Source of the DNA: Mangrovimonas sp. ST2L15
GTDB lineage: Bacteria; Bacteroidota; Bacteroidia; Flavobacteriales; Flavobacteriaceae
NCBI RefSeq assembly: GCF_001280515.1
Contig: NZ_LBIQ01000030.1
Coordinates: 496,001-560,000, forward strand
DNA length: 64,000 nt
Direction of reading: 5' to 3'
The notes under the pieces were generated by a model. The model was not told the DNA's origin. It did not search any database and worked only from the letters and a program-made list of their open reading frames with translations. Below are positions 2,006-55,842 of this stretch, in pieces; the first letter of the stretch is position 1; every line of letters begins with the position of its first letter. The position numbers and the translations under genes were made by a program.

Positions 2006-2018
2006 AAAAAGGAAAGAT

Positions 2019-3518
2019 ATGAAAAATAGAATTTTAGTAATAGCTATAGGATGCTTCAGTTTATTGGGGTGTAGTGATGACTTTTTAGAGAAATTACCGG
2101 AAACAGTGGTTTCTGGAGAAAACTTTTACAAAACAGAAGAGGATTTCAGATTAGCCAATGTAGGCATGTATGTTCCGTTAAGGAATTTATATGGAACAGG
2201 TCTTGCAGACTATGGGGCGTGGTCAATGGGTGAAATGAGATCAGATAATACATGTTTCATTTACAATGAAGACAATAGGGGGTATGCCGATAGAGAATAT
2301 GTTGAGCAATTTATTGATGATCCCAATAGTGGTGCAATTTCAAATAAATACCAAAACGACTATATCATTATTGGAAGAGCTAACCAAATTTTAGATAAGA
2401 TTGATGCTGGGGAATTTGACCAAACTCAAAAAGATAATTATAAGGGACAAGCATTGTTTTTAAGAGCTTTTGCTTATTTTGATTTAGTTCAATATTTTGG
2501 AGATGTGCCTTTGGTTTTAACTCCTCCAACAACATATGAGGAAACAATTACCGGCCAAACCGCAAAAGAGGAAATATATAATCAAATAATAGGAGACCTT
2601 GCTTTAGCGGGGACACTATTGCCAAACAAAGCTACCCAGCAGGTTGGTTTTGTTGCAGATGGTGCAGCATGGACCCTTTTGGGTAATATTTATCTTGTTT
2701 TGGAGCAATGGCAAAATGCAGTTGATGCTTTAATGAATGTTGAGGGGTATTCATTGCTTGGTAATTACTCAGATATTTACGAGCCAGCCAATAAAAATCA
2801 CTCTGAGTCTATTTTTGAAGTTCAATATTACGCTGATCAAACTTCAGGGGTTTCCAGTAACTTTGCTTATAATTTCCTTCCGATTCTTTCAAACCCAGGT
2901 GTTATTCCTGGATTCCCTGATGGGAATACCAATGCATATGCAGGTTGGAATACACCTACCCCGGATTTAATCGCAGCTTATGAAGATGGAGATTTAAGAT
3001 TTGATGCTTCGATTGAATTATTCACGGGAGATGACTATGTTGATATTCCATTCATAAAAAAATATGTTCATGGATCTGATGTAGCTCCAAATACTAATGA
3101 TAATTGGCCAGTTTATAGATATGCAGAGGTGCTTTTGTTTTTGGCCGAGGCTTATAATGAGCTAGGTAATACCACAGAGGCATTAAATTACCTTAATATG
3201 GTCCATGCACATCCAAGAACTGGTTTAGATCCTTTATCCTCGTCTAGTCAAGCCGAACTTCGTGATTTAATTTTACACGAAAGACGAATTGAATTAGCCT
3301 TTGAAAATAAACGTTGGCTTGACTTGGTGAGGACTGATAACGTGTTGGAAGTAATGACAGAACATGTGCAAAACATTTTAGCAAATCCAACGGATTATTA
3401 TTACCCAGCAAATGTATCACCTCCTGGTTATAATGTGGCAGAGTATCGTCTTCTTTTTCCAATTCCACAAAGAGAAATTCAGATAAATCCACTGTTACAA
3501 CAGAACCCAGGTTACTAA
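2019..3518 (+). CDS. SusD/RagB-like nutrient-binding outer-membrane lipoprotein
   Basis: Protein of 499 residues. The chosen ATG at 2019 gives a lipoprotein signal peptide (MKNRILVIAIGCFSLLGCSDD, lipobox LLGC); an in-frame ATG at 1983 would overlap the susC end and spoil the signal. The N-terminus carries the SusD hallmark FLEKLPET followed by ENFYKTEEDF. The helical tetratricopeptide-like middle has the family pattern KGQALFLRAFAYFDLVQYFGDVPLV, and the C-terminus has LRDLILHERRIELAFENKRWLDLVRT plus LFPIPQREIQINPLLQQNPGY. These are diagnostic for RagB/SusD. The protein sits on the cell surface and captures glycans for the SusC channel encoded just upstream. A weak hairpin with a T-run follows the stop. 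Confidence 0.95.
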   Translation: MKNRILVIAIGCFSLLGCSDDFLEKLPETVVSGENFYKTEEDFRLANVGMYVPLRNLYGTGLADYGAWSMGEMRSDNTCFIYNEDNRGYADREYVEQFIDDPNSGAISNKYQNDYIIIGRANQILDKIDAGEFDQTQKDNYKGQALFLRAFAYFDLVQYFGDVPLVLTPPTTYEETITGQTAKEEIYNQIIGDLALAGTLLPNKATQQVGFVADGAAWTLLGNIYLVLEQWQNAVDALMNVEGYSLLGNYSDIYEPANKNHSESIFEVQYYADQTSGVSSNFAYNFLPILSNPGVIPGFPDGNTNAYAGWNTPTPDLIAAYEDGDLRFDASIELFTGDDYVDIPFIKKYVHGSDVAPNTNDNWPVYRYAEVLLFLAEAYNELGNTTEALNYLNMVHAHPRTGLDPLSSSSQAELRDLILHERRIELAFENKRWLDLVRTDNVLEVMTEHVQNILANPTDYYYPANVSPPGYNVAEYRLLFPIPQREIQINPLLQQNPGY

Positions 3519-52681: not shown

Positions 52682-54580
52682 ATGAGTGACGCTATAAAAC
52701 ACGAATGCGGGATTGCACAACTTAGGCTTTTAAAGCCACTTGAATTCTATAAAGAGAAATACGGAAGTGCTTTTTATGGAGTAAATAAGATGTACTTAAT
52801 GATGGAGAAGCAGCACAACCGAGGTCAAGATGGTGCTGGTTTTGCAAGTATTAAGTTAGATACCAAACCTGGTGAAAGATATATCAGTCGCGTTAGGTCT
52901 ATTGCGCAACAGCCCATTCAAGATATTTTTGATCAAATTAACCAAAGGATCAATAAGGAGCTGACAGAACATCCTGAATATGCTGATAATGTAGAGCTTC
53001 AAAAAAAGCACATTCCATATGTAGGAGAAGTGTATTTGGGTCACGTTCGCTATGGTACGTTTGGTAAAAATAGCGTGGAGAGTGTACACCCATTTTTAAG
53101 ACAAAACAATTGGATGCATAGAAATTTAATTGTTGCTGGTAACTTCAATATGACCAATGTAAATGAGTTGTTTGATAATTTGATTCGTTTGGGTCAACAT
53201 CCTAAGGAAAAGGCAGATACCATAACCATTATGGAGAAAATAGGTCATTTTCTTGATGATGCAGTTGCTAAGCTTTACAAAAAGTTAAAAAAAGAAGGTT
53301 ACAGTAAAAATGAATGTTCGCCATTGATTGCAGAACGTTTAAATGTTGCCAAAATCTTGCGAAAAGCTGCCAAAAACTGGGATGGTGGTTACGCCATGGC
53401 TGGGTTGTTGGGTCATGGAGATTCATTTGTTTTGAGAGATCCAGCGGGAATTAGACCAACCTATTACTATAAGGATGATGAAATTGTCATTGTAGCTTCA
53501 GAAAGACCTGTTATTCAAACGGTATTTAATGTGAACTATGACGATGTTAAGGAATTAGAGCCAGGGCATGCGATTATAACTAAAACTACAGGAGAGGTTT
53601 CGATTAAAAAGATTTTGGAGCCACTACCAAGAAAAGCATGTTCCTTTGAACGTATCTATTTCTCTCGTGGAAGTGATGCCGAAATTTATCAAGAGAGAAA
53701 AACTTTAGGTAAAAAGTTAATTCCTAAAGTGCTGAAAGCTGTAAATCACGATACGGATAACACCGTGTTTTCATATATTCCAAATACAGCAGAAACATCC
53801 TTTTTTGGGATGATAGAATCTGTTGATCAGTATTTGAGTGAGCGAAAAACAAAGGCTATTATTGCTGGAGATGGAAAATTAACAGAGCAGGAAGTAATAG
53901 ATATTTTATCTCAAAAACCGAGAATTGAAAAAATTGCTATTAAGGATGTGAAGTTAAGAACTTTTATTACAGAAGATAGTAGTCGTGATGATTTGGTGGC
54001 ACACGTTTATGATGTTACCTATGGTGTTGTCAAGAAGGATGATAATCTGGTTATTATTGATGATAGTATTGTTAGGGGAACTACCTTGAAAAAGAGTATC
54101 ATTAAAATGTTGGATCGATTGAACCCGAAAAAAATAGTGGTAGTTTCATCTGCTCCACAAATCAGGTATCCAGATTGTTATGGTATTGATATGGCTAGAC
54201 TTGAAGATTTAATTGCCTTTAGAGCTATGTTGGAATTATTGAAGGAAAACGATAAATATCATATGGTGGAGGAAGTTTATCGCAAGTGTTTAGCGCAAGT
54301 AGAGCTTGAAGATAAGGATGTTAGAAACTTTGTAAAAGACTTATATAGCCAATTTACTGCAGAGCAAATTTCAGATAAAATATCTGAGCTTATTTCTGAT
54401 GAAACTGTAAATGCGGAGGTTGAAACTATTTTCCAATCGATAGAAGATTTGCATGAAGCATGTCCTAAAAATTTGGGAGATTGGTATTTTACTGGGAATT
54501 ATCCAACACCAGGTGGAAATCGCGTGGTGAATAGAGCTTTTATTAATTTCTTTGAAGGAAATAGGGAGAGAGCATATTAA
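52682..54580 (+). CDS. purF: amidophosphoribosyltransferase, long Bacteroidota form
   Basis: 632 residues, longer than the ~500-residue E. coli enzyme. The N-terminal nucleophile hydrolase domain has HECGIAQLRL, where the Cys (residue 9) would become the N-terminus after removal of a short propeptide, and EKQHNRGQDGAGFAS. GHVRYGTFG and RDPAGIRPTYYY are glutaminase-domain motifs. The phosphoribosyltransferase domain has VIIDDSIVRGTTLKKSII (PRPP loop) and VVSSAPQIRYPDCYGIDM. The C-terminal ~100 residues are an extra acidic helical region. It makes phosphoribosylamine, the first step of purine synthesis. Confidence 0.95.
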   Translation: MSDAIKHECGIAQLRLLKPLEFYKEKYGSAFYGVNKMYLMMEKQHNRGQDGAGFASIKLDTKPGERYISRVRSIAQQPIQDIFDQINQRINKELTEHPEYADNVELQKKHIPYVGEVYLGHVRYGTFGKNSVESVHPFLRQNNWMHRNLIVAGNFNMTNVNELFDNLIRLGQHPKEKADTITIMEKIGHFLDDAVAKLYKKLKKEGYSKNECSPLIAERLNVAKILRKAAKNWDGGYAMAGLLGHGDSFVLRDPAGIRPTYYYKDDEIVIVASERPVIQTVFNVNYDDVKELEPGHAIITKTTGEVSIKKILEPLPRKACSFERIYFSRGSDAEIYQERKTLGKKLIPKVLKAVNHDTDNTVFSYIPNTAETSFFGMIESVDQYLSERKTKAIIAGDGKLTEQEVIDILSQKPRIEKIAIKDVKLRTFITEDSSRDDLVAHVYDVTYGVVKKDDNLVIIDDSIVRGTTLKKSIIKMLDRLNPKKIVVVSSAPQIRYPDCYGIDMARLEDLIAFRAMLELLKENDKYHMVEEVYRKCLAQVELEDKDVRNFVKDLYSQFTAEQISDKISELISDETVNAEVETIFQSIEDLHEACPKNLGDWYFTGNYPTPGGNRVVNRAFINFFEGNRERAY

Positions 54581-54692
54581 CCATAAAATTTGATATATAC
54601 GGTTCGTCCTATAAATCAGTCTTTTAATCTAATATATGTGCATTTCGTCTATTATTTATTTCGAAATGAGAAAATCCATCTAATTTAGTAAG

Positions 54693-54765
54693 ACCATAAC
54701 ATAAGTAGGTTAAGTTCATGGTAGATTTGGGGCAAAAAAAGGTGAACACTTGTTCGCCTTTTTTT
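54693..54765 (+). ncRNA. tandem putative small RNA, copy 1
   Basis: First of three near-identical elements. It begins ACCATAAC, contains ATAAGTAGGTTAAGTT and TAGATTTGGGGC, and ends in a terminator hairpin (GGTGAAC 54741-54747 with GTTCGCC 54752-54758) plus a T-run. In the 5' hairpin, ACCAT pairs with ATGGT; one extra pair found in the other copies is lost here. A TAATTTAG element sits just upstream in place of the -7 box. No conserved ORF: the ATGGTAGAT frame diverges between copies. Confidence 0.6.
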
Positions 54766-54891
54766 ATGCCCTTTCTTATTTCAAGTCCTTCAAAAACCCA
54801 ATTTTATCCTTTTTTAATGCTTCTTGTCTAATTTTTAGGCTGTTGGACTATTTTATTTTATGATTTCATTGCTTTCGAAGTTCTTTGAACT

Positions 54892-54962
54892 ACCATAACA
54901 TAAGTAGGTTAAGTTTATGGTAGATTTGGGGCAAAAAGGTGAGCACTTGTGTTCACCTTTTT
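54892..54962 (+). ncRNA. tandem putative small RNA, copy 2
   Basis: Second copy, 199 bases after the first. 5' hairpin: ACCATAA (54892-54898) with TTATGGT (54915-54921). Terminator hairpin: GGTGAGCA (54938-54945) with TGTTCACC (54950-54957), then T residues. Relative to the other copies, two stem bases differ, yet both positions still pair (U-A instead of U-G; G-U instead of A-U), which supports a functional RNA structure. Confidence 0.62.
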
Positions 54963-55080
54963 ATTTTATATAATTTGTTGCAAGTCAATCTTTTTTAATC
55001 TGTATTTCCTGATTTTCTAACTTTTAACAGATTTTAAAACCGTTTATCTATTTTCTATTATCATTTGATTTCTTTCCTTT

Positions 55081-55088
55081 TATATTTG
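55081..55088 (+). promoter_or_regulatory. -7 promoter element of small-RNA copy 3
   Basis: TATATTTG, an exact TAnnTTTG match, ends 4 bases before the conserved element, so transcription would begin at about its first bases. The equivalent positions of copies 1 and 2 are weaker (TAATTTAG, GTTCTTTG). Confidence 0.5.
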
Positions 55089-55092
55089 AACC

Positions 55093-55165
55093 ACCATAAC
55101 ATAAGTAGGTTAAGTTTATGGTAGATTTGGGGCAAAAAAGGTGAACACTTGTGTTCGCCTTTTTT
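55093..55165 (+). ncRNA. tandem putative small RNA, copy 3
   Basis: Third copy, 201 bases after the second. 5' hairpin: ACCATAA (55093-55099) with TTATGGT (55116-55122). Terminator hairpin: GGTGAACA (55140-55147), loop CTTG, TGTTCGCC (55152-55159), then T-run to 55165. It has the best promoter of the three. The ~125 bases between copies are T-rich and not conserved. Confidence 0.62.
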
Positions 55166-55180
55166 ATTTTCTAGAAATAA

Positions 55181-55210
55181 AAAAAGCAGTCCATTTGGAC
55201 TGCTTTTTTT
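55181..55210. terminator. bidirectional terminator of the superoxide dismutase gene
   Basis: AAAAAGCAGTCC (55181-55192), loop ATTT, GGACTGCTTTTT (55197-55208). A and T runs on both sides allow use in either direction; it follows the stop of the minus-strand gene and backs up small-RNA copy 3. Confidence 0.88.
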
Positions 55211-55233
55211 ATCATGTGAGTTATGCTTAGAAA

Positions 55234-55842
55234 TTATTTTGCTTCAGCATAGCGTCTTTCAACTTCATTCCAATTAATTACCTTGAAAAAAGCTTCAATG
55301 TAATCTGGTCTTCTGTTTTGGTAATTTAAGTAATAGGCGTGTTCCCAAACATCAAGACCTAAAATTGGAGTTCCAGTACAACCAACACCTGGCATTAAAG
55401 GATTATCTTGATTTGGTGTAGAGCAAACTTCAACTTTTCCTCCCTCATGAACACATAACCAAGCCCATCCAGACCCAAATTGTCCTGCCGCTGCTTTACT
55501 AAAGGCATCCTTGAAAACTTCAAAAGACCCAAATTCAGCTTCAATAGCATCTTTAAGTTCTCCTGATAAACGACCTTTATCTTCAGGGTTCATAACTTCC
55601 CAGAAAAGACTGTGGTTATAAAAACCACCACCGTTATTTCTAACAGCTTTGTTGTCCATATCCAAATTGATAAGGATGTTTTCGATGGTTTTTCCTTCTA
55701 AATCTGTTCCTTGAATTGCATCATTTAATTTACTTGTATAACCTTGATGGTGTTTTGTATGATGAATTTCCATGGTACGAGCATCGATATGTGGTTCCAA
55801 TGCATCATACGCATATTTTAGTTTCGGTAATTCGAAAGCCAT
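55234..55842 (-). CDS. superoxide dismutase, Mn-type signature
   Basis: 202 residues, no signal peptide, so cytosolic. [33 protein letters not shown] opens the family with the first metal His; NHSLFWEVM carries the second, and [19 protein letters not shown] the Asp and third His. The second-shell Gln lies in [11 protein letters not shown], and [13 protein letters not shown] has the Gly pattern; both favour Mn (or cambialistic) rather than strict Fe use. It dismutates superoxide. Confidence 0.96.

Follow-up and report, generated by a model that had tools for sequence, protein, structure and literature searches.

Three near-identical elements in the genome of Mangrovimonas sp. ST2L15 are, with a probability of roughly 0.8, independent genes of one trans-acting antisense small RNA (sRNA) of ~73 nt that would block the translation of a small amphipathic peptide. 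The case for a trans-acting antisense repressor is strong; the elements belong to an sRNA family that is real, conserved and, in general terms, of a known kind, having an unusually clear, unlinked target with several sites, and what is new here is this target, an undescribed small-protein gene. Little is known about how sRNAs work in the Flavobacteriaceae, where translation is said to start without dependence of the ribosomes on Shine-Dalgarno pairing. A concrete predicted sRNA-mRNA pair in dozens of genera, with its seeds, its sites and a new small protein, makes the mechanism, the copy-number logic and the peptide function directly testable.

The three-copy array between purF and sodA

In the window, the stretch of 64,000 nt that was analysed, an array of three elements of 71-73 nt sits between a purF-like gene and sodA, with starts at 54693, 54892 and 55093 (spacing of 199 and 201 nt), exactly where the sequence-only reading had placed them. 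Copy 1 (54693..54765, + strand) begins 112 nt past the stop of the purF-like gene and is followed by copy 2 (54892..54962, +) and by copy 3 (55093..55165, +), the latter lying upstream of the convergent sodA. They match the covariance model of the family with E-values of 5.2e-17, 4.6e-16 and 2.0e-16, respectively, copies 1 and 2 being among the 58 sequences used to build it. The conserved upstream neighbour (52682..54580, +) encodes 632 aa and has TIGR01134 purF as its best NCBIfam match, at 133 bits and under the cut-off of 350, and the conserved convergent neighbour sodA (55234..55842, -) encodes a Fe/Mn superoxide dismutase with the Pfam domains Sod_Fe_N and Sod_Fe_C. Just after copy 3 and outside the sRNA, a repeat search found a perfect 17-bp inverted repeat with A/T runs (55177..55212, no strand assigned), likely a sodA terminator working both ways.

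Comparing the three copies, 40 of 41 alignment columns from ACCAT to GGGGC are identical, the remaining one being a C/T difference, and the spacers between them show no likeness, as had been noticed from the letters. A scan of the whole genome (3.56 Mb) with a 32-nt core, allowing up to 3 mismatches, matched only these three copies. The architecture consists of a 5' hairpin, an invariant GATTTGGGGC linker and a terminator; the hairpin is formed by the arms ACCATAAC/GTTYATGGT around the loop AUAAGUAGGUUAAG, followed by the unpaired linker AGAUUUGGGGC and by a terminator hairpin with a T-run (in copy 1, the hairpin ACCATAACATAAGTAGGTTAAGTTCATGGT, the linker AGATTTGGGGC and an intrinsic terminator). 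Each copy folds in the manner that the earlier reading had described, and does so more stably than any of 200 dinucleotide shuffles, the z-scores lying between -3.7 and -4.0.

Regarding transcription, copy 1 is preceded by a TAnnTTTG-type -7 box (TAATTTAG, 54681..54688, +) and copy 3 by another (TATATTTG, 55081..55088, +), both read from the sequence, as is the degenerate GTTCTTTG, lacking the TA, in front of copy 2 (54880..54887, +). The perfect box reported earlier at copy 3 is therefore present, but it is not peculiar to that copy, and the poor box of copy 2 counts against three independent sRNA genes. With this reservation on copy 2, the promoter and terminator of its own that mark a free-standing, trans-encoded base-pairing sRNA gene can be read in the sequence.

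Distribution and conservation of the sRNA family

A covariance model built from 58 copies, a search that the earlier reading had proposed, matches 129 of 149 Flavobacteriaceae genomes, with 1-6 matches each and at least two in 107 genomes; the searches used strict filters, and the 20 sRNA-negative genomes may include misses. In a sample of the order, 24 of 146 genomes were positive, all 24 being Flavobacteriaceae. In a sample of the phylum (247 genomes), 23 Flavobacteriaceae genomes match strongly, and the matches in 11 outside genomes reach only E 0.002-0.04 and were taken as background; in both of these searches, only a few tens of first-look candidates were scored in each genome, and more distant relatives may have escaped them. 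Among the matches listed by pattern search and DNA scan, the element occurs in Aquimarina, Winogradskyella, Formosa, Salegentibacter, Aequorivita and Flavobacterium. The three repeats are probably genes of a regulatory RNA of ~73 bases with family-wide occurrence in the Flavobacteriaceae, its expression being predicted from sequence.

Of 170 distinct copies, 155 are preceded by a TAnnTT box whose end lies 4-6 nt from the ACCAT start, and over 303 copies the columns of the -7 box hold T in 264, A in 265, T in 297, T in 279 and G in 206. Changes on both sides were found in 9 of the 15 terminator pairs of the 58 sequences, bearing out the view that changes in the terminator stem keep its pairing. 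The 5' hairpin in the same sequences has 98.6% of its cells paired and 1 of 11 pairs changed on both sides; within one spacing class, one inner TAA/TTA pair is broken in 5 of 18 distinct 5' parts. The loop and the linker hardly vary across copies and some stem pairs do, so a pairing or protein contact is suspected there. The locus is preserved as well: among 115 loci, some of them the same place fetched twice, both purF and sodA are found in 82, one of them in 26 and neither in 7, the element being on the purF strand in 97 of the 97 loci holding purF and opposite to sodA in 93 of the 93 holding sodA.

A sub-type with GATTTGGGACGAAAA replacing GATTTGGGGCAAAA was observed (L043:7583-7655 and L116:3978-4050, with further copies in L023, L153-L155 and L169); where inspected, it closes the array at the end away from purF, and it perhaps has a separate role. 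In L172 (genome G357) the copies lie ~240 bp apart and in L141 there are five, evenly spaced and with the same letters just upstream and downstream; such arrays look freshly amplified, and copy number may change quickly.

A small-protein gene as the probable target

Among the matches listed, 12 dispersed near-matches to the linker were fetched, a small sample in which some were picked because the same letters recurred, and 10 of the 12 lie at the same small open reading frame (ORF), a gene for a two-domain ABC ATPase adjoining 9 of these 10 sites. The ORF is conserved and mostly of 40-43 aa, with the consensus MNxAxNLPExPT...YLTKKIFML, and is usually convergent with the ATPase gene, which Pfam and NCBIfam group with oligopeptide/dipeptide importers and which is present in 62 of 68 fetched loci, these being only ~1.2 or 3 kb long. 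In Mangrovimonas, it is located at G000:C24:339063-339191, ~157 kb outside the window and unlinked to the sRNA at C24:550693, and the letters there read MNVASNLPERPTSSYEMRLFMNYNRTIRFVKSLWYLAKKIFML.

A profile made from 20 of the small-ORF proteins, with a cut-off of E 0.01, matches 76 of 149 Flavobacteriaceae genomes (75 of the 148 genera sampled), five of the 76 being weak matches at E 0.002-0.01 that may be false. The ORF is found in 76 of 129 sRNA-positive genomes and in 0 of 20 sRNA-negative ones (Fisher p 1.4e-7, uncorrected for phylogeny). The profile found no match in the other 53 sRNA-positive genomes, where either the peptide was missed or other targets exist.

Pfam, NCBIfam, PHROGs and PADLOC gave no match for the three small-ORF peptides submitted to each. 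The lengths of 65 ORFs range from 26 to 45 aa, with 40-43 aa in 47 and 29 aa in 10, and in one ORF that was kept (G171) the chosen frame is interrupted by a stop. Seven examples of the peptide are cationic and amphipathic, with net charges of +2 to +6 and hydrophobic moments of 0.49-0.70, and the KKxFML C-terminus is nearly invariant, FML closing all 31 compared forms of 42 aa, a set selected for an ML ending. As seen in 31 ORFs, the variation at the three codon positions is 0.31, 0.20 and 0.46 over codons 11-42, which indicates that the ORF is truly coding, and 0.37, 0.29 and 0.30 over codons 2-10; the fall at the third position from 0.46 to 0.30 points to a constraint at the nucleotide level where the antisense site lies. 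The Asn-Leu-Pro codons are spelled AATCTACC in 41 of the 44 ORFs bearing NLP. Furthermore, a promoter-like box, ATHTTWR with CC 2-6 nt later, lies upstream of 48 of 65 ORFs, compared to an average of 9.6 and a maximum of 16 in shuffles.

Predicted antisense pairing between the sRNA and its target

Read on the ORF strand, the linker match spans the leader and start, with GCCCCAAATCTACCATAAACTTAA and then ACTTATG-like letters over the ATG, and is antisense to the sRNA. Up to four such sites are found per ORF, in the leader, over the start codon and in the first codons, with two to four in the leader and coding start of 44 of 65 loci by a loose count.

The 41-nt sRNA core was paired by RNAduplex with the leader and start (-100 to +45) in 68 of the 76 ORF-positive genomes (G017, G162, G008, G059, G553, G090, G091 and G117 being left out), against 60 dinucleotide shuffles per locus, and 65 of the 68 loci beat all of the shuffles, with z down to -11.4. 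When the leader and start codon alone were considered (-40 to +9), 61 of 68 still did so, a cleaner figure, since the profile contains NLP and the site within the coding region is partly built into the finding of the loci. No antisense excess was seen in G030, G077 and G108, whose protein matches are weak (E 6e-5, 1e-5 and 0.006), and these three were excluded from later averages after the shuffle test, leaving 65. The mean duplex energy of the 65 loci is -36.9 kcal/mol, compared to -17.7 for the reversed sRNA and -8.6 for its reverse complement. Moreover, it was the protein profile, and not a match to the antisense letters, that led to 50 of the 68 loci, and the 47 of them among the 65 average -36.7 kcal/mol.

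In Mangrovimonas, the duplex of -42.5 kcal/mol ranks 1 of 116 leaders, the best of the 115 others, which are ORFs of the window and of fetched loci of the same genome and not a genome-wide set, reaching -28.2; sub-windows of the target gave -25.6, -23.1, -35.4 and -42.5. The conserved complementarity to an mRNA that is expected of a trans-encoded base-pairing sRNA is thus found well beyond chance. Over the 65 targets, the pairing covers sRNA positions 8-40, comprising the loop, the 3' arm and the linker, with dips at positions 15-17 and 25 and few pairs at 1-7, which supports the earlier proposal of a multi-copy regulatory sRNA family contacting mRNAs through its loop or linker. Divergent 29-aa forms, such as those of G012, G063 and G101, have a short leader, GTCCCAA...ACCTACTTATG, matching the linker and loop and little of the stem.

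Cognate pairs are slightly better than non-cognate ones (-37.07 vs -36.50; better in 37 and worse in 26 of 65; p 0.016), a co-variation that is barely testable because the sRNA hardly varies. A C/U polymorphism before AUGG in the otherwise near-invariant sRNA was compared with the targets; in G012 and G030, no leader with the ATCTTACC that would match the GGTAAG variant of the sRNA was seen. The pattern CCAAATCTACC N2-15 TATG has 41 matches, spread over 37 of the 149 family genomes, compared to 27 for the reversed pattern, a modest excess, and 14 of the 30 loci listed open the same small ORF. A general regulon based on a start-codon seed was considered and discarded, as the 12-mer ATCTACCATGAA is not enriched in the Mangrovimonas genome (32 matches, including those in the three elements, vs 38 for the control). 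One further leader, of a 415-aa Polysacc_synt_3 protein (L235, ORF 2014-3261, the same as L249), carries GCCCCAAATCTACCTAATACTTATG, and likewise GCCCCAAATCTACC...TACTTATG, across its start codon; judging by these letters, this leader is a possible second target, seen in a single genome.

Proposed mode of action and alternative explanations

In the proposed mechanism, the loop AUAAGUAGGUUAAG, the 3' arm of the hairpin and the single-stranded linker AGAUUUGGGGC would form a pairing region of ~33 nt, and the variable 3' hairpin would act as a Rho-independent terminator. The main conserved target would be the mRNA of the undescribed small amphipathic protein encoded elsewhere in the genome: a first contact by the loop or linker would open the hairpin, and the resulting duplex of ~33 nt would cover the start codon, blocking translation and perhaps destabilizing the mRNA. 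The sites in the leader, at the start codon and in the first codons imply that pairing should cover the start codon, and we infer repression as the direction of regulation. Several gene copies would raise the dose of the RNA and, together with up to four sites, could make the block strong; the need for pairing to open the 5' hairpin counts against the scheme. A search of the Mangrovimonas genome gave no match to Hfq (PF17209), the chaperone associated with many trans-encoded sRNAs elsewhere, nor to RRM_1 (PF00076), which was found in the control genome of Bacteroides ihuae, and pairing may therefore not need a known chaperone. Outside Hfq-bearing bacteria, such dependence is not universal.

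The peptide itself may be either a membrane peptide of the TisB kind or a small regulator. In the type I pair tisB/istR, an antisense RNA covers the leader and start of the mRNA of a small amphipathic cationic peptide, and the arrangement described here is alike in this respect. It can be put forward, as a tentative hypothesis that is rather doubtful, that the family forms an unlinked type I toxin-antitoxin-like system, in which 1-6 antitoxin-like RNA genes would silence a membrane-active peptide through up to four sites and without Hfq. An RNA antisense to the mRNA of a small peptide is found in silico, and the peptide gene was not seen in any of the 20 sampled genomes that gave no sRNA match. 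The antitoxin does not, however, lie beside the toxin, the two being at C24:550693 and C24:339063 in Mangrovimonas; unlike tisB/istR, the loci are unlinked and the RNA is multicopy. The putative type I pairs of the Bacteroides thetaiotaomicron map are cis-encoded in the part of that source available (PMC7366714).

It is also conceivable, though improbable, that the small-protein mRNA is a decoy whose tandem sites titrate the sRNA, the real regulon being elsewhere, such as the surface proteins or proteases proposed for Rfp18 or FopS. The repetition of sites in 44 of 65 leaders and coding starts by the loose count, the 53 sRNA-positive genomes with no match to the ORF and the polysaccharide-biosynthesis leader would fit this idea; nevertheless, the ORF is conserved as a protein, with the third position most variable in codons 11-42 and a near-invariant KKxFML, which a pure decoy would not need, and no other site recurred among the 12 dispersed matches inspected, a small and chosen sample. 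The shared sequence of ~34 bp might instead be a binding site for a protein, on DNA or RNA, present in the peptide leader as well as in the sRNA genes, with only chance to explain why the two are oppositely oriented. The strands resemble each other in the 5' hairpin because of its partial palindrome, and the extreme conservation of the elements is as for protein sites; this explanation is held to be very unlikely, as the spacing of the half-sites varies by indels, being 12-15 nt in 14 ORF-linked sites (15 was the upper limit of the pattern) and 16 in the sRNA, a variation compatible with antisense pairing, and as the pairing extends across linker and loop and a site recurs within the coding region. 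Scarcely credible is the view that the array consists of nothing more than tandem terminators for purF transcription, of repetitive origin: good terminators do close them 3' of the purF-like gene, but the 5' 41 nt are far better conserved than the terminator, -7 boxes precede 155 of 170 copies, and terminators alone have no need of an invariant linker and loop. The antisense sRNA is the preferred reading of the array.

Comparison with known systems

None of the Rfam 15 covariance models matches the window at or above its gathering score, and the suggestion that the elements might be the listed Flavo-1 motif found no support; below that score the region has 43 weak matches, of which none is to Flavo-1, such weak matches stemming mainly from the A/T-rich terminator. 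Membership in FopS/GibS (RF04319) was also rejected, as the elements score 20.0-20.4 bits against a cut-off of 56, and so was homology to it, since CATGGTA and AGATTT are shared but 120 of 2000 shuffles align as well. FopS had no match in 61 genomes of the phylum, the Bacteroides control being matched. A separate observation concerns viruses, which may carry FopS-like RNAs: the 25-nt 5' core of FopS occurs in nine IMG/VR viral contigs (L186-L194) in two kinds of context, none of the six tested passing the Rfam FopS cut-off, and Bacteroides phage BX-TP2 (L195) holds a 92%-identical stretch.

Closer in taxonomy, the Rfp RNAs of Flavobacterium psychrophilum are likewise flavobacterial sRNAs conserved across a genus, and the element is also found in Flavobacterium (L042, L051 and L089). 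Rfp18 differs in its third stem-loop, by which pairing with metalloprotease mRNAs is predicted, the element having two hairpins; compared by description only, and as far as the available part of the source goes, it may or may not be the purF-sodA sRNA (PMC9723704). Putative non-coding RNA candidates have been reported from F. columnare as well, in the part of the paper available (PMC5395568). Among the papers listed by a literature search, supplements aside, none describes this pair of sRNA and small ORF.

The LhrC1-5 RNAs of Listeria come from nearly identical genes arranged in tandem, every one of which has a promoter and a terminator to itself, carry redundant short C-rich seeds and are associated with Hfq. 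The array described here is similar in having tandem near-identical genes with promoters and terminators of their own; however, sequence and phylum are others, and the complementarity of ~33 nt to one mRNA and the lack of a detected Hfq set it apart. The members of FopS/GibS, as far as described in the available part of the source, are intergenic, antisense or 3'UTR-derived and do not form one array as here (PMC11697453), and their partner RbpB is of the RRM_1 type, of which the Mangrovimonas genome shows none. Still, in style, FopS/GibS is the nearest known system according to the same portion of that source, being a multicopy sRNA of the Bacteroidota that is transcribed from canonical promoters, has a terminator and a single-stranded seed, and pairs at the translation start (PMC11697453).
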